From Burkholderiales bacterium (GTDB taxonomy: Bacteria; Pseudomonadota; Gammaproteobacteria; Burkholderiales; Burkholderiaceae_C), in the NCBI GenBank assembly GCA_005789825.1, contig SXWY01000166.1, positions 1 through 37,123 on the forward strand: 37,123 bases of DNA, read 5' to 3'. The notes beneath the pieces were generated by a model. The model was not told the DNA's origin, made no database searches, and saw only the letters and a program-made list of their open reading frames with translations. The translations under genes were made by a program, and so were the position numbers. This document shows positions 17,065 through 28,447 of the stretch, one piece after another; positions within the stretch are counted from its first letter, which is position 1, and every line of letters begins with the position of its first letter.

Positions 17065-18429
17065 TCAGGGTCCGGGTTGTAATTTATACACTTTGCCGGA
17101 GTCGCCAAACGGCCCCATGCCTTCGTGCGTCAGCACATATATTTCGCCGCTGCGGTCTTGTGCCAAGCTGATGATGCGGCTTTCTATTTGAACCACCTTG
17201 TCTAATAGCCAAGGGGTTTGCTTTTCGGCAGTGGGGGTGGCCACAAACAACTGCCCAGAGGCTTGTTTGAAGGACGCGCTCCAGTCAGCCACCACCAACT
17301 TGCCTTGCAGTGAGGGGATTTTTTTGCCACGGTACATGCGTGCACCCGTGATGGCAGTGCCCACGCCTTTGACACCGAGTGTGGAGTCAGGGTGGTTGGT
17401 TTGCATGTTGGCGTACTCCACCACCGGCATCTCCAGTGGTTCACCTTCGCTGCCTTTGGAGTTGCAATGCTTGGGTGGCTGTCGGGGCTTTAAGCGGTCT
17501 ACGCAATGTGTGGCCTCCATGAGAGGCCAGCCGAAATTACCCGGCCCCGTGACTTTGTAAGCCGCTTCCCACAGCGTCTCGGCGATGGCGGTGACATACA
17601 GGTCGCCGCTGCCGTTGCTGTCGAACGCAATTCGGTAGGGATTGCGAAATCCCCACGCCCAAATTTCGGGGCGCCCCTGTGAGGCATTCAGTGGGTTGCC
17701 TGCGGGAATCGCGTAGCCGGGAAAGCCACGGTCAACATCGATGCGCAAAATCTTGCCATACAAGCTGTGGCGGTCTTGCGCCAGCGCGTCCCACAACAAA
17801 CCCTCGGCAGGCACATTGAAGGCTTCCCAAACCACCCATTTGCCTATGCCGTGTGACGCGCCGCTGTCGCCCATGCCGATGTAGAGCATGCCGTCGGGGC
17901 CAAACGCCATGGCGCCACCGTTGTGTTTGCGGCTGGGCCAGTCCAAGGCCAGCAATACTCTTTCAGTTTGTAGGTCAACACTGACAGTGTTACCTGTCTT
18001 GGCGGTGAATTCGGAGATACGACGGGTGTAGTTCCAGTTTTGCGGCGCGGCGTCACGCAAGGGTGCAGAATAGCTGACAAAAAAACGCCCGTTCTTGGCA
18101 AATTGAGGATGCAGGGCAAAACCCAATAAACCGCGTTCTTCAAAATCGTTCGCCACGGGCAACATGCGACTGCGCAAATCCATGACCGGCGCTGGCTGCA
18201 CACTGCCATCGGCGCCCATCAATTTGACCAAGCCGTCTTGCTGAACCACCAAAAACCGACCGCTGGCATCAGGCAGTTCTTCCAAGTGGATTGGGGCGGT
18301 CAAACCACTGGCAAGTAACTTCAATTCCAGTTTTTGGGCGTGGACCTGGGGCACCAGCCACAAAAAACTGCTGAGAAGGCCGACCAGGCCGATCCGAGTC
18401 CATTGGGACAGCGATTTGCATTTGACCAT
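17065..18429 (-). CDS. PQQ-dependent sugar dehydrogenase (soluble glucose dehydrogenase-like beta-propeller), secreted
   Basis: MVKCKSLSQWTRIGLVGLLSSFLWLVPQVHAQ signal; LKLLASGLTAPIHLEELPDASGRFLVVQQDGLVKL; FEERGLLGFALHPQFAKNGRFFVSYS; MAFGPDGMLYIGMGDSG; GFRNPYRIAFD. Confidence 0.88.
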   Translation of the reverse strand: MVKCKSLSQWTRIGLVGLLSSFLWLVPQVHAQKLELKLLASGLTAPIHLEELPDASGRFLVVQQDGLVKLMGADGSVQPAPVMDLRSRMLPVANDFEERGLLGFALHPQFAKNGRFFVSYSAPLRDAAPQNWNYTRRISEFTAKTGNTVSVDLQTERVLLALDWPSRKHNGGAMAFGPDGMLYIGMGDSGASHGIGKWVVWEAFNVPAEGLLWDALAQDRHSLYGKILRIDVDRGFPGYAIPAGNPLNASQGRPEIWAWGFRNPYRIAFDSNGSGDLYVTAIAETLWEAAYKVTGPGNFGWPLMEATHCVDRLKPRQPPKHCNSKGSEGEPLEMPVVEYANMQTNHPDSTLGVKGVGTAITGARMYRGKKIPSLQGKLVVADWSASFKQASGQLFVATPTAEKQTPWLLDKVVQIESRIISLAQDRSGEIYVLTHEGMGPFGDSGKVYKLQPGP

Positions 18430-18592
18430 GCGAGGGGAAAATAGGGCAAAACTGGGCATAAATATTGGCAATTGATTTCCCCTGGCATGGGGAGTGGAAT
18501 CTTGTGCACCCCATCGGGCCGACCGCGAAAAGCTGATAAAACCTGAGTATAGTTTCGAAAAAACCTACTTTTCCTTTTCACCAGGTGGTCAT

Positions 18593-19078
18593 ATGTCGCG
18601 GATGAACTCAACTTTTGTGTCCTTGTTGTGTGTGATGTCATCTGCCTTGCCAGTGCATGCTGCTGACTTGGACAACACCGAACGCATTTACCAAGCTTCG
18701 TTTGGCGTCATCACGGCCTTCGGTTTGAAAAAGCAAATCGATGCCGATCCGAATTGCCAAGGCAAATCTTTTGCGGGCTTCGACCTGAACCAGTTTCTCG
18801 ATGCCATCCCCAAAGATTTTTTAACCAAGCCCGGTCAGCGCCAAGGCATCGCCAACCAGTTCAGCGACTATTTTGAACAACTGGACCAGATCCAGTTGCC
18901 GTCTGGCAAAAAAATTGCACAGCATTACCAAGACATCAAGCAATCACCTGATGTGGTGCAATTTCAGCAAAACGCTGGAGGGGATGCTTCTGCCTACTGT
19001 AAAAAAATCTACGACATGTCGGGCGACATTTTTCAGCAACAAATCGACAGCATCAAGCAATTGATCGTCAAAAAATAA
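18593..19078 (+). CDS. hypothetical secreted protein
   Basis: MSRMNSTFVSLLCVMSSALPVHAADLDNTERIYQASFGVITAFGLKKQIDADPNCQGKSFAGFDL...; signal peptide then Q/D-rich helical region; two Cys. AAGG/AGGTGG upstream. Confidence 0.7.
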   Translation: MSRMNSTFVSLLCVMSSALPVHAADLDNTERIYQASFGVITAFGLKKQIDADPNCQGKSFAGFDLNQFLDAIPKDFLTKPGQRQGIANQFSDYFEQLDQIQLPSGKKIAQHYQDIKQSPDVVQFQQNAGGDASAYCKKIYDMSGDIFQQQIDSIKQLIVKK

Positions 19079-19094
19079 AACGACGGTTTTTGCA

Positions 19095-19115
19095 GCTCAG
19101 CTTCGTCGGCTGAGC
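19095..19115. terminator. hairpin at the convergent 3' ends, overlapping the ferredoxin stop codon
   Basis: GCTCAGC-TTCGTCG-GCTGAGC, perfect 7-bp stem; gene ends at 19078 (+) and 19097 (-). No strong adjacent T tract. Confidence 0.4.
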
Positions 19116-19405
19116 GTGATGGCTTTTTCAGGGCAAGCCGCCACACACAAACCGCATGCTTTGCAAGCATCCACATGGGGTGCATAGGCCATTCGCATGC
19201 CATGTACGCGCACTTTGAGTTTGTTCATAAAACCCAGCGAGGCGTAGTCTGCGTCGTCGATGCGGCGCACCTCAAACACCGATTCGGGGCAAACCCGTTC
19301 GCAGTCGCCTTTGCCCTCGCAACGTTTCATGTTGATCACAGGCTCGAACAAGCCCGGTAATTGTTTGCATTCGCTGCTGGAGCGTTCAAGCGTGTCGGTG
19401 GTCAT
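19097..19405 (-). CDS. 4Fe-4S dicluster ferredoxin, last gene of ebo operon
   Basis: INMKRCEGKGDCERVCPESVFEV and PHVDACKACGLCVAACPEKAITL cluster motifs; ATGA overlap with the upstream eboA-like gene. Confidence 0.92.
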   Translation of the reverse strand: MTTDTLERSSSECKQLPGLFEPVINMKRCEGKGDCERVCPESVFEVRRIDDADYASLGFMNKLKVRVHGMRMAYAPHVDACKACGLCVAACPEKAITLSRRS

Positions 19406-20313
19406 TCGTAAGAGGCACTTTCAAAATCAGACCAAGGAATGCGGGCCGGCTCGGGTTGCCATGTTTTGGCGTTGACGGCGGCGCGAACCTCGGGGTCACA
19501 CAAATGGGGGTGGCTGAGACAAACCTTGGCAATCGCTTGCAACTCTGGTTCCCTGGCTTTGCCCGCCAAAGCCTGCAACACCACTGCAACGCCTTCGCGG
19601 GTGGCGCATGGCACGGCGCCGCGCCAGATTTCAGGGGCAATGAAACGGTCGGCTGCCCAACGCTCTTGCACGAGTTTGATGAGCATGGTGGATAAATCGG
19701 TGTTGTAGCGTTGGTCAACCCCTTGGATTTGCCAAATCGAGGAATCTAAAAAAAACGCTTTGACGATCATTTGGTTCCAAGCGGCTTCGTCAAAAAATTC
19801 GAGCGGATAAGGATTTCGGTGTGCCATGGCTTCGTACACCGGACGCATGGTGGAACGAATCGCTTCGCGGGCTTTGGGCTCCAGCGCTTGCGGTTGCGGA
19901 AACAAGGCGAAGCCACGAAAAATAGCCAGCAACTCGTTGATCTCAGAGGTATCGACCAGCAGCGACACTTGGTGGGCAAAGCTGGCATCGTCTGCTTGGT
20001 AAACCGCCAACGTGAAGACAATGCGGGCTGTTTGGTCAATGCTCCAGTCGCTCGGGTCCAAGCCCGGGCGCAATTGGTTTGCCGCCTGCAATTCCTCGGC
20101 AGAGGGCTTTAAATCTGCTTTGCCCAGTTTGCGCGGTGCCAACCCGAGCGCTTTGAACCAGCGCCCTTGTTCGGGTTGTTTTTGCAAGCTATGGAGCTCG
20201 GTATCAAACCATGCCAATGCATCGGCAGTCAAACGAAGTTGAAGCCAGCCCCGCAGCAGTGATATGGCAGACCCAATGGCCTCTGGGGATAAATGCTGGT
20301 GTTTGGGATACAT
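19402..20313 (-). CDS. eboA: EboA-like metabolite traffic protein
   Basis: MYPKHQHLSPEAIGSAISLLRGWLQLRLTADALAWFDTELHSL...RWFKALGLAPRKLGKADL; position within the ebo set plus EboA-like sequence. Confidence 0.8.
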   Translation of the reverse strand: MYPKHQHLSPEAIGSAISLLRGWLQLRLTADALAWFDTELHSLQKQPEQGRWFKALGLAPRKLGKADLKPSAEELQAANQLRPGLDPSDWSIDQTARIVFTLAVYQADDASFAHQVSLLVDTSEINELLAIFRGFALFPQPQALEPKAREAIRSTMRPVYEAMAHRNPYPLEFFDEAAWNQMIVKAFFLDSSIWQIQGVDQRYNTDLSTMLIKLVQERWAADRFIAPEIWRGAVPCATREGVAVVLQALAGKAREPELQAIAKVCLSHPHLCDPEVRAAVNAKTWQPEPARIPWSDFESASYE

Positions 20314-20330
20314 GGCAAAACCTCAAGCGT

Positions 20331-21209
20331 TCATGTGCCGGGAATGAACTTTTGAAACAAACGGCACAACACATATGCCACTATACAAGCCGCTACCCAG
20401 GGCCAGCTGGCGCCAGCGACAGCGACTGCTGCGGCATCGACCAAGGCGCATGCCGCAATCAACTGCGCCACCGCGCGCGGTACATCACCGCCTTGGCGTC
20501 GCAACGCCAACAACCGCACGGCGTATAAATCAGCACTGGCCAGCAACAGCAAGGCCACCCAGGCCATGGCGGGGAGATTGAAAAACACCATGAAAATCAG
20601 CAATGGCGCGGCCAAAATCGCCAGCGGCCAGAGACGGTCGATCCGGTCTAAGCTCTCTTGTTTGGCCGCGTAGGTCAAGCCGGCGATATGTGTGAATACC
20701 GCCAACATGCCCCACCACAGAGCTTGCGGTGTGTCTGGGGCAAATGTCCAAGCGGCCAGCAAATACACCAACGCCCGACAACTGCCCATGATCACCGGCG
20801 ACCAGACATTGCCCTTGTGCCAAGCGTTGTACAAAAGAATAGCCAAGCTCAGTGCAACGCCTGCTTGCACCGCCAACATGCCGTAAGGTGCGACGATGTA
20901 AATACCTGCCATCAACATCGCGCATCCCATGGCAGACACGGCTTTGGCTGAAATTTGACCCGAGGGAATGGGACGGCTTGGGCGTTCACGCGCATCAATG
21001 TCTGCGTCAAATGCATCGTTCAAATACATGCCACCGGTGTAGAACAAGGTGATCGCGAGCATGACCCACAACAACTGTGGCAGGTCAGTGTGCAAGCCCG
21101 CCAAACAAGCGCCAGCAAGCACATTGGTCCAGACCGTGGGCAAGTTGGACACCCGACCGATTTTCAACAGCAACGTGAAACGTGGGGCAGGTGGGGTAGA
21201 TGGATTCAT
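20331..21209 (-). CDS. eboC: EboC: UbiA-family prenyltransferase-like membrane protein
   Basis: RVSNLPTVWTNVLAGACLAG...LFYTGGMYLNDAFDADIDARERPSRPIPSG (UbiA NDxxDxxxD motif), multiple hydrophobic helices. Confidence 0.88.
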   Translation of the reverse strand: MNPSTPPAPRFTLLLKIGRVSNLPTVWTNVLAGACLAGLHTDLPQLLWVMLAITLFYTGGMYLNDAFDADIDARERPSRPIPSGQISAKAVSAMGCAMLMAGIYIVAPYGMLAVQAGVALSLAILLYNAWHKGNVWSPVIMGSCRALVYLLAAWTFAPDTPQALWWGMLAVFTHIAGLTYAAKQESLDRIDRLWPLAILAAPLLIFMVFFNLPAMAWVALLLLASADLYAVRLLALRRQGGDVPRAVAQLIAACALVDAAAVAVAGASWPWVAACIVAYVLCRLFQKFIPGT

Positions 21210-22405
21210 GTGGTGAGTATCTGGTGAACGAATTGCAGTTCGCGGGCGATGGCCTGCGCTTTGCTATCGGTTTTGAGGGCGGCAGGCAGCACATCCCAAG
21301 TATAGGTTTCGACCTCCAGATGCGAAGAGAAACCTTCGAGTTTGCAGCCTTGCAAGGTTTGCAAGAGTTGCGCCTGCGTCGTGGAAATAGCACCTGTATG
21401 TTCCAGAAAAACCGGTACATGGCAATGCACGCGCCACTCGCCGTTGGCTTGCCCGGCTTGATAAGCGGCCATGGCTTGGGGCAAGTCGAGAAAACGCGTG
21501 AGGTCTTGCGACTGCACCACAACTTGGTGCAAGTAAACCGCATCGTCGAACATGTGCAGGGCGGGCAACAAATCGGCTCGCATATCGGGTATGCGAACCG
21601 CACTGGACAACTGTATTTTGGGTATACAAATACCGACCGCGCGCAATTGCCGCATGGCTTGCAACGGATCTTCAAACGCGACCGCACTGTGGCAAACATC
21701 GAAGCACACGCCCAAATGGGTGCGCAATGCCGCCATGGCTTGTTCGTTGCTGCACGACAAAGTCTGTGCCAACTTCGACACCACGGCGGGACTGCGCATG
21801 TGATCCAAGATGAAATCTGCCGCCTCTTGCGTGGTTTCAAGATAGCAAGCAGGCTCGGGTTCGAGCGCCAGCGCGATCAGCTTGCCTTGTCGCTGTGCGC
21901 AATCGACCAAATGCACCACGCATTGCAGCAGATGGTCAAGAATGTTGTCCAAGGCGCCGGGCGCTTGCGCTGCGTCGCGAAAACCCACGGGCACGGTGGA
22001 GATGCTGCCATCCACGCCCTCGGGTAGCAAGGCGACCAATATGTCGATGCAAGCCAGCGTGTAGCGCAAGCGTTCGGGTGAGGTCCAATCGGGCAAATAC
22101 ACGTCTTGCTTGACTTGCGTGCCGTGGAATTGGCCGTAAGGAAAAGCGTTGAGGGTGAACACATAGGCGTTCAAACCAAGTAATTGCTGTTGAAAAGCTT
22201 TGAGTGTGTGGCTGTCTTGCAGGCTGAAAGCCGCTTGGCCCGACAAACGCAAACCAATGCCCATGGGCGCACCCTGTGTGAGCGCATCCCGTATGGGTGG
22301 GACAAAAGTGTTTAGGCTGTCTCTGACTTCTTCCCAGCTCTCACCTGCGTGGATATTGGTGCAATAGGTGAGGTGGGGTTGGGCTTTGAGCCTGGAAAGA
22401 TGCAT
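21206..22405 (-). CDS. eboE: EboE: TIM-barrel metabolite traffic protein
   Basis: LTYCTNIHAGESWEEVRDSLNTFVPPIRDAL...GIGLRLSGQAAFSL...LNAFPYGQFHGTQVKQDVYLPDWTSPERLRYT...LALEPEPACYLETTQEAADFI...LGVCFDVCHSAVAFEDP. 4-nt overlap with eboC. Confidence 0.88.
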   Translation of the reverse strand: MHLSRLKAQPHLTYCTNIHAGESWEEVRDSLNTFVPPIRDALTQGAPMGIGLRLSGQAAFSLQDSHTLKAFQQQLLGLNAYVFTLNAFPYGQFHGTQVKQDVYLPDWTSPERLRYTLACIDILVALLPEGVDGSISTVPVGFRDAAQAPGALDNILDHLLQCVVHLVDCAQRQGKLIALALEPEPACYLETTQEAADFILDHMRSPAVVSKLAQTLSCSNEQAMAALRTHLGVCFDVCHSAVAFEDPLQAMRQLRAVGICIPKIQLSSAVRIPDMRADLLPALHMFDDAVYLHQVVVQSQDLTRFLDLPQAMAAYQAGQANGEWRVHCHVPVFLEHTGAISTTQAQLLQTLQGCKLEGFSSHLEVETYTWDVLPAALKTDSKAQAIARELQFVHQILTT

Positions 22406-22409
22406 TGCA

Positions 22410-23663
22410 TTACTTGAGGTGTTTTAACCACGCAATGGATTCGGTCACCCATTGGTCGTTGATTTCATGCACTTCTATGCCTTTGCCAATCGCGCTGAGC
22501 AAGGTGATGGTCAACTCGCCGCCGAGGTGTTCTCTGAATTCGCGCAAGCCTTGTAGCACCGCCAAACGTCCGCTTTCATGGCGGGCTTCCAATTGGTCAT
22601 TCCAAAGTTTGAAGCCCAAGGTGACCAACAATTGATGAACCCGCATGTCTTCACCCGCAGGCAACAAGCCTGCCAGCACCGAGTAATGGGCATCCAGTGC
22701 AATGCCAATCGCCACTGCTTCTCCGTGGCTGAGAACATGCTGGTTGGTCATGCGCTCGAGCTTGTGTGCCACCCAATGGCCGTAATCGAGTGGACGCGCC
22801 GAGCCTGATTCAAAAGGATCGCCACCATGGGCGATTTGGTTCATGTGGATTTGTGCCGAGCGTTTGATCAGGTAGGACAGTGGCACGGTTTCAAACCGCG
22901 CCAACGCCAAGGCGTTGCTTTCCAGCCAGAGGAAAAATTCGCGGTCACGGATCAACGCAACTTTGACCGCCTCGGACATGCCGCAACGCTTTTCGCGAGC
23001 GGGCAGTGAATCGATGAACACACCGTCGTTGATCACCGCCCATGGGGGGGCAAATGTACCGACCAGGTTTTTCAGGCCCAGCCAGTTGACCGCGTTTTTC
23101 ACGCCCACGCCACTGTCGTCCTGACCAAGAACAGTGGTGGGAAAGCGGATATGGCGCACGCTGCGGTGGAAGATGGCGGCGGCATAACCCACGGCATCCA
23201 TGATGGCGCCACCACCGATGGCAATCGCAAACGAGTGACGGTCGATGGCTTTGTCTGACAGGATTTGCAGCAGGTTGGTGATGAAGTCAGGGTCGTTTTT
23301 ACATTCCTCACCGCCTTGGAGCACCACGATGTCGCCCACCAAGTCGAGGAATTCGTTGTGCGCCGAAAAATACGCCTGGATTTGCCCTGCCAATTGCGGC
23401 AAAGCCTGTGCCACACCGCCATCGATGAACACCGCGACACGGTGGCGCTTGCCGGGTTCACGGCGGCGCACCACATCCAGCAAATGCAGGTTGACCGGAT
23501 CGAACGCATGCCGTGTGAACACCACCGGGTAGTCGTACTCCACGACAAAACGTTGCACTTGCACACTGTCAACGATGGCACGGGTGTCGGCGCTGTCGGT
23601 TGGTGCAGGAAGACCCGCATCGAGTTTGCGTTGCTTGTTAGGGTAGTGGTAGATGTTGTTCAT
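22410..23663 (-). CDS. eboD: EboD: 3-dehydroquinate synthase-family sugar phosphate cyclase homologue
   Basis: AIAIGGGAIMDAVGYAAAIFHRSVRHIRFPTTVLGQDDSGVGVKNAVNWLGLKNLVGTFAPPWAVINDGVFIDSLPAREKRCGMSEAVKVALI; DYGHWVAHKLE; HGEAVAIGIALD. Confidence 0.9.
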   Translation of the reverse strand: MNNIYHYPNKQRKLDAGLPAPTDSADTRAIVDSVQVQRFVVEYDYPVVFTRHAFDPVNLHLLDVVRRREPGKRHRVAVFIDGGVAQALPQLAGQIQAYFSAHNEFLDLVGDIVVLQGGEECKNDPDFITNLLQILSDKAIDRHSFAIAIGGGAIMDAVGYAAAIFHRSVRHIRFPTTVLGQDDSGVGVKNAVNWLGLKNLVGTFAPPWAVINDGVFIDSLPAREKRCGMSEAVKVALIRDREFFLWLESNALALARFETVPLSYLIKRSAQIHMNQIAHGGDPFESGSARPLDYGHWVAHKLERMTNQHVLSHGEAVAIGIALDAHYSVLAGLLPAGEDMRVHQLLVTLGFKLWNDQLEARHESGRLAVLQGLREFREHLGGELTITLLSAIGKGIEVHEINDQWVTESIAWLKHLK

Positions 23664-23682
23664 AGGTACTCAACTCAAAAAA

Positions 23683-25086
23683 TCAGGAAGCAGGGGTGGC
23701 GTTGTAAGCGTCGCCAAAAATGTGTCTGAGCGCAATGTCTTTGATGTCAGTGGCCGCCACTTGGGCAGGCAACCATTGCGGTGTGTCGGTCATGACCAAT
23801 GGACCGTCTTGCGGGTCGTCAGTGGGTCTGCCATGCGAGCCTTTGACCAAGGTGGCGTCCAGCGGTATGACATCCATCAGCATGCGGAAACCCAAGAATT
23901 TTTTCAGCAGTTTGCCGATGACGGTGAGCTTGGGAAATGCAATGGCTGGGTCGAGGAACAATTCCACGGGGTCGAAGCCGGCCTTGCGGTGGATTTCCAC
24001 CGTGCGTGCGAAATCGGGGGCCAGCGCGTCGTCCAGCCAAAAATAGTAGGTGAACCAAGAGCGGGCGTCAGACATGACGACGAGTTCGCCACTGCGTTCA
24101 TGTGCGATGCGGTGTGCCGCTTGCTCGGACTTGTCCCAGACCGATTCCACGCCAGCAATGCCTTGAAGCAACTGTTTGACTTGGGGCACCATGGCCGGGT
24201 CACGGATGTAAACATGGGCGATCTGATGGTCAGCCACCGCGAACACCGCCGAGGTGGTGGGGTCCAACATTTCGTGGCCGTCTTCCATGCGAATTTGCAA
24301 CCAGCCTTCGCGGCGGAAGTGACGGTTCAAGTGGATGGGACGGTCCACAGGCGTGATGCCGTATTCGGACAACACCATGACTTTGCGGCCATGCTTTTGC
24401 GCAAAGTCGATCAAGTCGCCGACCACTTGGTCTACCTCTTGCAAGGATTTGGCCACTGCTGGATGCGACTCGTCCGGGCCATAGCGTTGCAAGTCGTAAT
24501 CGAGATGCGGCAGGTAGACCAGCGTGAGGGTGGGGTCAAAGTCGGTGATGGCCAACTCGGAAGCTTTGGCGATCCAGCGGGTTGACGAGATATTGGTGTT
24601 GGGGCCCCAAAAATTGAACAGCGGAAATTTGCCCAAGCGGCTACTGAGTTTTTCACGCCAATCGGTGGGGACCGTGAAGCAGTCTGGCAGTTTGCGACCG
24701 TCGGCTTTGTAGATGGGGCGCGGTGTCGCGCCGAAGTCGTGGTCTGACGCCATGTTGTACCACCAGAACATATTGGCGCAGGTGAATTGCGGATGGCGGG
24801 CTTTGCCAGCTTGCCAGATTTTTTCACCCTTGACCAAGCGGTTCGATTGCCGCCAAAACCAAATTTCATGCAGGTCGCGAAACAACCAACCGTTGGCCAC
24901 GATGCCGGTTTGGTCTGGGGGCAGGCCGGTCATGAAACTGGCCTGCGCCGTGCAAGTGACAGCAGGCAATGTGGTGGTGAGTGGGCGCATGCCACCTTGT
25001 TTGGCAAACGCTGTCAAGCGGGGCGTGTGTGGCCCCAGATGACGAGGCGTCAAACCCACCACATTCAAAACGATCAAAGGCTGCAT
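23683..25086 (-). CDS. eboF: EboF: alkaline phosphatase / nucleotide pyrophosphatase superfamily protein
   Basis: LIVLNVVGLTPRHLGPHTPRLTAFAKQGGMRPLTTTLPAVTCTAQASFMTGLPPDQTGIVANGWLFRD...VLSEYGITPVDRPIHLNR. Phosphodiesterase superfamily core with Thr nucleophile region. Confidence 0.87.
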   Translation of the reverse strand: MQPLIVLNVVGLTPRHLGPHTPRLTAFAKQGGMRPLTTTLPAVTCTAQASFMTGLPPDQTGIVANGWLFRDLHEIWFWRQSNRLVKGEKIWQAGKARHPQFTCANMFWWYNMASDHDFGATPRPIYKADGRKLPDCFTVPTDWREKLSSRLGKFPLFNFWGPNTNISSTRWIAKASELAITDFDPTLTLVYLPHLDYDLQRYGPDESHPAVAKSLQEVDQVVGDLIDFAQKHGRKVMVLSEYGITPVDRPIHLNRHFRREGWLQIRMEDGHEMLDPTTSAVFAVADHQIAHVYIRDPAMVPQVKQLLQGIAGVESVWDKSEQAAHRIAHERSGELVVMSDARSWFTYYFWLDDALAPDFARTVEIHRKAGFDPVELFLDPAIAFPKLTVIGKLLKKFLGFRMLMDVIPLDATLVKGSHGRPTDDPQDGPLVMTDTPQWLPAQVAATDIKDIALRHIFGDAYNATPAS

Positions 25087-25117
25087 AAGACAAGAAACAG
25101 GATGGATGGGTGGCGTG

Positions 25118-26230
25118 TCAGCGGATCACGTTGGCGTCAACCGTGCGGGTGGTCACCTTGGGCTCTTGGCCGCGCAACACGGAATTGCCTTCGTACAAAG
25201 TACGTTGGTCAATCGCCTGAGGTTGCAGCCAATGGGATTCGTGCATTTCGCCATTCAGGCCATAAATGGCCAAGGCGTTTTTGTAAACCACTTGGTGAAT
25301 CGTGTCAGCGGAGATACCCCGGTCAGCCATCAGGCGTGCAGTTTTGGGCACGGCGAGCGGGTCAGACACCCCCCAGTCGCAAGACGAATCCACAATGACA
25401 CGCTCTGCACCGTACTGTTGAACCAAAGCGGCCAAACGCTCGTTACCCATTTTGGTGGACGGGTAAATGGTGAAAGCGCACCAGTAGCCTCGGTCGAGCA
25501 CTTCGCGCACCGTTTCTTCGTTGTTGTGGTCAATCACACAACGGGCGGGATCGAAACCGTGTTCCTCCAAAACATCCATGGTGCGTTGTGTTCCGCGTGT
25601 TTTGTCGCGGTGCGGCGTGTGGATCATGATGGGCAGATCGAACTCTTTGGCGAGTTCGATTTGCGCACGAAACACTTTGTCTTCTTGCGGTGTTTGTTCG
25701 TCATAGCCAATTTCACCGACAGCCACCACGCCTTCTTTGGTGAGGTAGCGCGGCAAGACGGCTAACACTTCATCGGCCAGTGCGACATTGTTGGCTTCTT
25801 TGGGGTTCATGCCAATCGTGCAGTAGTGGCGAATGCCAAATTGACCCGCGCGAAAACGCTCAAAGCCGGTGATGGTGGAGAAATAGTCGATGAAGGTACC
25901 GACGTTGGTGCGCATTTGACCCAACCAAAAAGCGGGCTCAATGACGGCGACGATGCCGGCTTGCGCCATGGCTTCGTAGTCGTCGGTGGTGCGCGCTGTC
26001 ATGTGCGCATGCGGGTCGATCATCATGCCCAAACCACCCGTGCGAATGGCGCGGAAATCTTTTTTGTTCAAGGCCAAGCGCTCGGCATCGTCCATGATTT
26101 TTTGCAGCATGCTGGGTGAGAATGTGCCACCGCAGCAAGGACATGACACCGATTTGCCACTGAACATTTCTTCCACCGAGGAAGCATGCGTGTCTTTGTC
26201 AGACGATGGGTGTGAAGGATGCGTTGTCAT
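25118..26230 (-). CDS. eboB: EboB: TatD-like metal-dependent hydrolase with N-terminal Cys-rich extension
   Basis: SVSCPCCGGTFSPSMLQKIMDDAERL...MMIDPHAHMTARTTDDYEAMAQAGIVAVIEPAFWLGQ...VGEIGYDEQTPQEDKVFRAQIELAKEFDLPIMIHTPHRDK...VDSSCDWGVSDPL. Confidence 0.88.
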   Translation of the reverse strand: MTTHPSHPSSDKDTHASSVEEMFSGKSVSCPCCGGTFSPSMLQKIMDDAERLALNKKDFRAIRTGGLGMMIDPHAHMTARTTDDYEAMAQAGIVAVIEPAFWLGQMRTNVGTFIDYFSTITGFERFRAGQFGIRHYCTIGMNPKEANNVALADEVLAVLPRYLTKEGVVAVGEIGYDEQTPQEDKVFRAQIELAKEFDLPIMIHTPHRDKTRGTQRTMDVLEEHGFDPARCVIDHNNEETVREVLDRGYWCAFTIYPSTKMGNERLAALVQQYGAERVIVDSSCDWGVSDPLAVPKTARLMADRGISADTIHQVVYKNALAIYGLNGEMHESHWLQPQAIDQRTLYEGNSVLRGQEPKVTTRTVDANVIR

Positions 26231-26534: not shown

Positions 26535-26933
26535 TCAAGGTTCAAAGACTGAGCTCATGATGTAAGCCACAACACCTACGCGCTGTTTTTCATTGAAAAC
26601 CGCTTTCCAGCCTGGCATTTTGCGAAACCCATTGGTGACGCGGTCGTAGACGAAATCCGGTTGATAGCTTGACGGTTTGAGCTTAGGTGCTTTACCGGGA
26701 TACGCACTGTTGCCATGGCAATGGCGACACTGACCATCCCAAACCTGTTTGCCTGACTCTATGTAGCTAGGGTCTTGCATCACTTTGGTGGTCATGTCAG
26801 GCAAGGGTTCACTGGCAGCGGCTTCTTGTGCCCACGCTTGAGAAGTGAGACACAAAACGGCCAACAAAATTGAAACACACGCAGTCAACGGTGTGCGGCA
26901 GAAAAAAGTGGGGGATGTGTGCAAGGAATTCAT
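26535..26933 (-). CDS. secreted c-type cytochrome (mono-heme)
   Basis: Signal-like N-terminus (SILLAVLCLTSQAWAQEAAA), heme-binding CRHCH (QCRHCHGNSAYPGKAPKL), distal Met FRKMPGWKAV. Confidence 0.9.
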   Translation of the reverse strand: MNSLHTSPTFFCRTPLTACVSILLAVLCLTSQAWAQEAAASEPLPDMTTKVMQDPSYIESGKQVWDGQCRHCHGNSAYPGKAPKLKPSSYQPDFVYDRVTNGFRKMPGWKAVFNEKQRVGVVAYIMSSVFEP

Positions 26934-27009: not shown

Positions 27010-28320
27010 TTACTTGACAACAACTTTGTAGATGGTGTCTTGTGAACCGTTAGGGCCAGTGGTGATGGAAGTCAAAGCGTACACATCGCCATTGTTGTCC
27101 TGAGCAAAGCGCAGGATGTAAGGGTTTTTACCATTCGGTGTACCACCTTGGACGCTCACAGAAGCGACTTCCATGCTCCATTTGCCGTCGCTGCCTTTGG
27201 TGCCGACGAAGATTTGGCCGTCATTTTCAGCGAAGCCTTTGCTCCAGTCGCCGAAGATGTACTTGCCTTGGGCGCCAGTGCCTTTACCGCGTGACACATA
27301 ACCACCTGCCACGGAAATGCCTTTGCAACCATTGGGAACGGCTGTGCAATTGGCGTACTCCATGATGGCGGGTGTGATGCCAGTTTTGTCGCAGTTGGCG
27401 GGATGGTTGTCAGGCTCTGCCCAGTTGAAGCAGCGCATCACACCTTCCACACGACGCCATCCGGCGTTTTGGCCTTTCTCAACAGCCTTGATGGCTTCCC
27501 AGCTGTTTTGCTGCACATCGCCGCAATACAGGGTAGAGCCGCCAGCCATGTCGAATGAGCATGCCCATGGGTTACGCCAGCCAGCAGACCATATTTCTGG
27601 CAACACGTCTTTCTTGCCCGCAAACGGGTTGTCTTTAGGAATGCCATAAGGCTTGCCGTCAGTACGTCCATCGACGTCGATGCGCAGGATTTTGCCCATC
27701 AGGGTCATCATGTCCTGGCCATTACCGATCAGAGGATTGTGGCCAATGCCCCAGTCGTTGGCGTAACCGCCATCACCGGAAGCAATGTAGAGCATTTTGT
27801 CAGGGCCAAAGCCGATCCAGTGACCGTTGTGGTTGAACTGGGGCCAACTGATAGAAGTCAGACGACGTGCAGAAGATATGTCCGCCATGTTTTTATCGCC
27901 TTTGGACACGGTGTACTCTTCGACCACGTTGCTGTGGTTGTACCAAAGCATTTGGCCCAAATCAGATTGGTAGTCCAAGTGGGCAGAGTAAGCCACATAG
28001 AACTTGCCATTGCTCTTGAAATCGGGGTGGAAAGCCAGACCCAACAGGCCACGCTCGTCAAAGTCTGCCATCAGGGGAACGATTTTGCTACGGATGTCGA
28101 GGAATGTTCCAGTGACCTTACCGTTTTCAAGAATCTTGATACGGCCGTTTTGCTCAGCGATGAACAGGCGGTTATCGCCTGGAGGTTGCACCATGGCAAG
28201 CGGTGTGTTGATGCCACTGACAACTTTTTCCAATGTGACGCTTGGGCCAGCATGTGCTGCTGAGCCAAATGCCATCAACGTTGTTGCCGCGATTGCTGCA
28301 ACCAGTTTTAGTACGCGCAT
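27010..28320 (-). CDS. PQQ-dependent sugar dehydrogenase (second paralogue), secreted
   Basis: MRVLKLVAAIAATTLMAFGSAAHAGPSVTLEKVVSGINTPLAMVQPPGDNRLFIAEQNGRIKILENG; FDERGLLGLAFHPDFKSNGKFYVAYSAHLDY; IGFGPDKMLYIASGDGG; GWRNPWACSFD. Confidence 0.9.
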   Translation of the reverse strand: MRVLKLVAAIAATTLMAFGSAAHAGPSVTLEKVVSGINTPLAMVQPPGDNRLFIAEQNGRIKILENGKVTGTFLDIRSKIVPLMADFDERGLLGLAFHPDFKSNGKFYVAYSAHLDYQSDLGQMLWYNHSNVVEEYTVSKGDKNMADISSARRLTSISWPQFNHNGHWIGFGPDKMLYIASGDGGYANDWGIGHNPLIGNGQDMMTLMGKILRIDVDGRTDGKPYGIPKDNPFAGKKDVLPEIWSAGWRNPWACSFDMAGGSTLYCGDVQQNSWEAIKAVEKGQNAGWRRVEGVMRCFNWAEPDNHPANCDKTGITPAIMEYANCTAVPNGCKGISVAGGYVSRGKGTGAQGKYIFGDWSKGFAENDGQIFVGTKGSDGKWSMEVASVSVQGGTPNGKNPYILRFAQDNNGDVYALTSITTGPNGSQDTIYKVVVK

Positions 28321-28447
28321 TATGGATCTCCTCTTATGAATGAAAAAACAACTTCTGATTGTTGCCGTCAAGTCACCCCTGTCGGGTCTTCCATGCCAGG
28401 CAGCCATCTTCCGTTGACGGAATAGTAGAACTGTTTGCAAGCCGGTC

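Follow-up and report, generated by a model that had tools for sequence, protein, structure and literature searches.

An ebo cluster in a Burkholderiales genome accompanied by genes for a secreted GSDH-family protein and a c-type cytochrome

The ebo gene cluster, with a putative part in moving small molecules out of the cytoplasm, is spread over many phyla and plastids, yet we know of no product for it. Here, an ebo cluster and its surroundings are analysed in a 37,123-nucleotide stretch from a Burkholderiales bacterium (contig SXWY01000166.1, positions 1 to 37,123), referred to as the window. The six protein families found here have been described as one packed operon, eboABCDEF, in eustigmatophyte plastids, Bacteroidota and cyanobacteria (PMC5133447). 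In Nostoc punctiforme, where ebo is linked to scytonemin, the scytonemin monomer stays cytoplasmic in all ebo mutants tested, and the site of ScyE action is the periplasm (PMC6282210). That paper also refers to the EDB region of Pseudomonas fluorescens NZI7, which, by its description, resembles the present locus in having a full proteobacterial ebo cluster and signal-peptide-bearing neighbours. Ubi-297, an EboC of marine Flavobacteria, is, as here, a UbiA-type prenyltransferase encoded in an ebo cluster and carrying a DxxDxxxD-type motif, and the farnesylation of quinoline acids in vitro by an EboC has been reported (both PMC9235831).

The cluster in the window consists of seven consecutive minus-strand open reading frames, given below in their 5' to 3' order in the operon, eboB-eboF-eboD-eboE-eboC-eboA-ferredoxin:

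25118–26230, minus strand: EboB, a TatD/amidohydrolase-superfamily protein (PF01026, 82.3 bits, above cut-off)
23683–25086, minus strand: EboF, an alkaline-phosphatase-superfamily (NPP-like) protein (PF01663, 211.5 bits, above cut-off)
22410–23663, minus strand: EboD, a member of the sugar-phosphate-cyclase superfamily (NF004852, PRK06203-type, 552.6 bits, cut-off 333)
21206–22405, minus strand: EboE, a xylose-isomerase-like TIM-barrel protein (NF035939, 446.5 bits, curated cut-off 250)
20331–21209, minus strand: EboC, a UbiA-superfamily membrane prenyltransferase (PF01040, 70 bits, above cut-off)
19402–20313, minus strand: EboA, an all-helical superhelix (NF035938 domain, 126.1 bits, cut-off 50)
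19097–19405, minus strand: ferredoxin with two iron-sulphur motifs (Fer4 models), overlapping eboA by 4 nt

Positions 19097–26230 (minus strand) are confirmed as a genuine ebo cluster with a coupled ferredoxin gene, both by curated models and by conserved gene neighbourhoods. The original prediction had described the ebo cluster as complete and its host as betaproteobacterial, with seven genes that overlap by 4 nt or lie no more than 31 nt apart; the reading frames were found as claimed, with spacings of 31, 19, 4, −4, 17 and −4 nt from eboB to the ferredoxin gene, and agreement with that description comes both from the family models and from EboE, whose nearest relative, at 95 % identity, belongs to a Burkholderiaceae metagenome-assembled genome. 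All six gene families of its eboABCDEF-type label are present, in the order B-F-D-E-C-A. The best models for the cyclase, the UbiA-like protein and the TIM-barrel protein are Ebo or Ebo-like rather than those of other families, and the ebo genes sit together in the loci of relatives; neither outcome that the original prediction had named as its refutation was thus seen. As a kind, the ebo cluster is already known; compared with the arrangement described in PMC5133447, the window has a different gene order, an extra coupled ferredoxin and flanking GSDH and cytochrome c genes. As in N. punctiforme (PMC6282210), Ebo proteins are accompanied by a secreted candidate oxidiser, whereas scytonemin biosynthesis genes are absent from the window and the secreted partner is a GSDH-family protein with a cytochrome c.

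For comparison, 80 loci carrying EboE, nearly all proteobacterial, were fetched together with seven plasmid loci, several of which come from other phyla; neighbour counts were made over 52 EboE identity groups, 32 of which are well-flanked, and the window genome was searched family by family. The cluster is far from a chance assembly, because some 80 further loci, most of them from proteobacteria, also have these genes in one place, where the six ebo genes stay grouped despite many gene orders. Eleven further sampled genomes of this family lack EboE, and the cluster is therefore sporadic in it.

Beyond the original prediction, the strongest new functional clue is provided by secreted GSDH-family and cytochrome c genes that flank the cluster:

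27010–28440, minus strand: GS2, a secreted GSDH-family beta-propeller of the ebo-associated orthologue group (PF07995, 112 bits, cut-off 25)
26535–26933, minus strand: small secreted c-type cytochrome (CRHCH), the partner of the GSDH gene (PF13442, 51.3 bits)
17065–18471, minus strand: GS1, another secreted protein of the GSDH family, encoded downstream of the cluster (PF07995, 115.9 bits, cut-off 25)

Both GSDH and cytochrome begin with signal-peptide-like segments, as read from the sequence, and GS1 occupies the same place in four loci of close relatives. Among the non-ebo neighbours, GSDH and small c-type cytochromes are commonest; next come an ABC-type ATPase group, membrane proteins resembling TMEM220 and proteins of the NUDIX family. 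A GSDH gene lies beside ebo in 24 of the 52 identity groups, which cover alpha-, beta- and gammaproteobacteria, SAR324 and Myxococcales, and in 17 of the 32 well-flanked ones; the adjacency persists despite differing ebo orders, on either side and in both orientations. The distance from the GSDH gene to the nearest ebo gene is typically 1–2 kb or less, and in most GSDH-bearing loci the cytochrome gene adjoins it, with a gap typically below 200 bp; in Hyphomicrobium loci, a MoxG-like cytochrome c(L) is employed. NUDIX genes adjoin ebo in eight groups, and their resemblance to isopentenyl-diphosphate isomerases is our own reading of what Pfam assigns to NUDIX. The window genome also encodes a second GS2-like paralogue (534 bits; locus L149, 8364–10205, contig G000:C57), which adjoins a TMEM220-like gene of the type seen near many ebo clusters.

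Co-occurrence was surveyed in 399 genomes of the order with a profile built from GS2 of the window and 16 orthologues (alignment A1), matches above 680 bits being counted as orthologues, and with EboE in the same genomes. GS2 was found in 16 genomes and EboE in 20, with an overlap of 14 (Fisher p 1.9e-19 by genome); by genus, GS2 and EboE occur in 8 and 7 of 159, respectively, and share 5 (p 1.4e-6), the counts carrying no correction for phylogeny past the genus level. In 12 of these 14 genomes, a single contig carries both genes no more than about 8 kb apart, and the remaining two genomes have fragmented assemblies. GS2 is thus nearly confined to ebo genomes in the order; in the two GS2 genomes lacking EboE, it stands beside a cytochrome and a TonB-dependent receptor, one of these loci adding dehydrogenases of the pyrroloquinoline quinone (PQQ) type. 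Genome G224, of genus g39, is without ebo and likewise without a GS2 orthologue. A phylum-wide repeat returned three EboE and two GS2 genomes, too few to weigh the link. A chance neighbourhood of GSDH was rejected on the grounds of co-occurrence and distance: the ebo cluster often travels with a secreted GSDH-family protein and a c-type cytochrome.

Residues H204, R289, N290 and Q311 are invariant in the GS2 alignment; by comparison with quinoprotein glucose dehydrogenase, we take H204 to be the catalytic histidine, and R289-N290 and Q311 to be positions near PQQ. In the window genome, the genes for PqqB, PqqC and PqqE sit on a single contig, and both GS2 genomes without ebo carry all three, whereas none of them was above cut-off in four ebo- and GS2-bearing genomes that are 96–99 % complete. 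PQQ dependence of all GS2 proteins is consequently unsupported. A homology of GS1 and GS2 to ScyE was not established either: against the ScyD/ScyE model NF033206, GS1 reaches 24.1 bits (cut-off 80) and GS2 is not among the matches listed.

Within the cluster, EboF and EboD show residue changes. The predicted EboF fold matches the Xanthomonas nucleotide phosphodiesterase Xac NPP (2gsn; E 4e-18), whose metal ligands are D54, D210, H214, D257, H258 and H363. In the alignment of the two proteins, the nucleophile T90 is retained as T44 and D210 corresponds to D196, whereas D54 is replaced by V10, H214 by Q200 and D257-H258 by E241-Y242; H418, which lies outside the displayed alignment, is presumed to be the counterpart of H363. 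EboF thus lacks the full metal-ligand set of a two-metal NPP, four ligand positions being replaced, and V10, D196, Q200, E241, Y242 and H418 are identical in 68 or 69 of 69 sequences from Pseudomonadota, Myxococcota, SAR324, Gemmatimonadota, Actinomycetota, Deinococcota and Bacteroidota. Judged from these alignments, the second metal site is dismantled and EboF is not an ordinary two-metal phosphodiesterase; the conservation of the ligand change argues for altered chemistry rather than decay. The earlier description of EboF as a phosphatase-superfamily protein is upheld at the level of superfamily and NPP fold, but the name phosphatase is doubtful because the metal ligands are conservedly replaced. 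The usual 'phosphatase/phosphodiesterase' label may consequently mislead, and the cluster may hide unusual chemistry.

EboD scores 206.9 bits against the AroB model TIGR01357, below the cut-off of 305, and the genome encodes a distinct aroB gene scoring 380.7 bits; on both counts, its identity with the housekeeping dehydroquinate (DHQ) synthase AroB was rejected, as the original prediction had anticipated. When EboD is aligned with DHQ synthases, the asparagine of the LNLGH motif is replaced by aspartate (D293), and the DKK motif gives way to residues ending in an invariant histidine (E378-H379). A Streptomyces plasmid ebo cluster without EboD encodes a protein with both myo-inositol-1-phosphate synthase domains (locus L109, 5392–6522), and this relative, together with the literature, favours a cyclitol as a possible, if unproved, product. 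A prenylated or cyclitol-like metabolite, made or moved by the cluster, had been suggested in the original prediction; this repeats hypotheses already present in PMC5133447 and PMC6282210, and can be held only provisionally.

We read the cluster as a proteobacterial form of ebo with a periplasmic oxidation unit of its own. The analysis shows the gene identities, the packing of the operon, the altered residues of EboF and EboD and the linkage of GSDH, cytochrome and ebo; all of the chemistry, what is carried and which way it moves are inferred. On this reading, ebo would produce a cyclitol-type compound with a prenyl group, and this compound would reach the periplasm, with a cargo or as the cargo, for oxidation by GSDH and the cytochrome; we put it forward tentatively, at a little short of an even chance. 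In its favour we count, besides the GSDH linkage, the inositol-type synthase of the Streptomyces cluster, the isomerase-like NUDIX neighbours, the MoxG-like cytochrome of Hyphomicrobium, the cytoplasmic monomer of the Nostoc mutants and the farnesylation by an EboC. EboD would cyclise a sugar phosphate in the cytoplasm to give a cyclitol, sedoheptulose-7-phosphate being the usual guess for its substrate. The cyclitol would be modified by EboE, EboB and EboF and receive a prenyl chain from EboC at the membrane, with EboA holding the enzymes together. The prenylated compound would then take a cargo to the periplasm, or be the cargo itself, and the secreted GSDH-type beta-propeller could oxidise the delivered molecule and pass electrons to the small cytochrome c, in a role analogous to that ascribed to ScyE for the scytonemin monomer.

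Several points weigh against this scheme. GSDH is not obligatory, as it is missing from 15 of the 32 well-flanked groups, and some GSDH-free loci carry a ferritin-like, VioB-type gene instead. No exporter gene lies near the cluster, and the ferredoxin fits no obvious role, with no partner enzyme evident. The resemblance to ScyE rests on analogy, given the 24 bits of GS1, and the best solved relative of GS2 is Hedgehog-interacting protein, to which it is nearer than to quinoprotein glucose dehydrogenase; this likeness and the missing PQQ synthesis leave an enzymatic activity of GS2 not secure.

The ferritin-like genes (PF12902), with a weak VioB match, occur in GSDH-free loci of Undibacterium, Massilia and Jeongeupia; in Mycetohabitans and Aureibacter, genes annotated as ferritin-like stand next to ebo. 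The range from such alternatives to GSDH suggests that ebo serves as a module to which different cargo pathways are coupled. In eleven loci without GSDH, the PF12902 gene is fused or adjacent to one for a protein with a VioB-like start (PRLxFxGxFQADVSTINND). The Mycetohabitans locus also has a CTQ-dependent oxidase and a tryptophan halogenase nearby.

Alternatively, ebo would yield a stand-alone secreted secondary metabolite of the isoprenoid-cyclitol kind put forward by Yurchenko et al.; GSDH and the cytochrome would then perform its last maturation step and there would be no other cargo. An operon that unites a cyclase, a prenyltransferase and modifying enzymes is in keeping with such a product, as are the inositol-phosphate-synthase relative in the Streptomyces cluster and the nematode repellence tied to the ebo-containing cluster of Pseudomonas (as reported in PMC6282210). 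However, the Nostoc ebo mutants described there built up no gene-specific intermediates and all accumulated the same scytonemin monomer, and this alternative, although a serious contender, is regarded as unlikely.

That the ebo product is a small prenylated cofactor or electron mediator needed by secreted beta-propellers, rather than a substrate carrier, is improbable. It would account for the presence of ebo in 14 of the 16 GS2 genomes, as well as for the lack of PqqB, PqqC and PqqE in the four nearly complete ebo- and GS2-bearing genomes and their presence in the two ebo-free ones, but these numbers are small and come from two genera, free PQQ may be taken up from outside, and the window genome has pqqB, pqqC and pqqE. 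Moreover, the Nostoc defect concerns localisation of the monomer, beyond oxidation alone (PMC6282210). A bolder version, to which we give a slightly slimmer chance, is that the product is a new prenylated cofactor or mediator that can substitute for PQQ in secreted beta-propellers (GSDH, ScyE), the transport phenotype arising from a lost periplasmic sink. The idea that GSDH and the cytochrome are unrelated hitch-hikers, kept near ebo by the shared ancestry of the sampled genomes, would suit double positives that span only five genera and a phylum-wide sample with too few positives for a test, but is very improbable given a link that recurs on both sides, in both orientations, with different ebo orders and in distant classes, its genus-level significance, and the absence of GS2 from the ebo-free genome of genus g39.

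New in this work are the association of GSDH and cytochrome with ebo, the altered site of EboF and the distribution of the PQQ genes; no mention of these was found in the consulted portions of the open-licence ebo literature. The preferred scheme of periplasmic oxidation draws on the first of these: a secreted oxidoreductase-cytochrome pair nearly confined, in this order, to ebo genomes offers a direct handle on the substrate or bound cofactor, and the partnership is a concrete, testable clue to the purpose of a biochemically unsolved cluster.

Among the remaining Ebo proteins, EboB has AF_1765 as its nearest solved relative and keeps metal-type residues (H74, H76, E173, H204, H235, D285) across 69 sequences. 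Its N-terminal extension of about 70 aa with a CPCC motif (window 26026–26230) is common to nine loci of Burkholderiales relatives; it reaches as far as Undibacterium and is missing from the two other EboB starts inspected. A comparison of the EboE profile with solved structures found no relative. The best NCBIfam model for the UbiA protein is NF035940 (EboC), at 135 bits and thus under the equivalog cut-off of 250; an EboC-type gene is located inside the cluster in relatives as well, and the motif NDxxDxxxD (N64, D65, D68, D72) is kept in 91 sequences. EboA scores 216 bits against a narrower family model with a cut-off of 320, and its predicted structure (pLDDT 90) has an armadillo/HEAT-like helix arrangement; a Foldseek search returned no significant match, with middling Z scores to a common helical-repeat arrangement, a result that marks the fold neither as known nor as new. 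EboA probably acts as a scaffold.

Several Burkholderiales ebo clusters have this ferredoxin gene after eboC or eboA. The first motif of the protein is without the second cysteine in aligned full-length sequences, and it may therefore hold a 3Fe-4S cluster. The plus-strand gene at 18494–19078, which separates the minus-strand genes for GS1 and the ferredoxin, encodes a 194-aa protein of no known family with a signal-peptide-like start.

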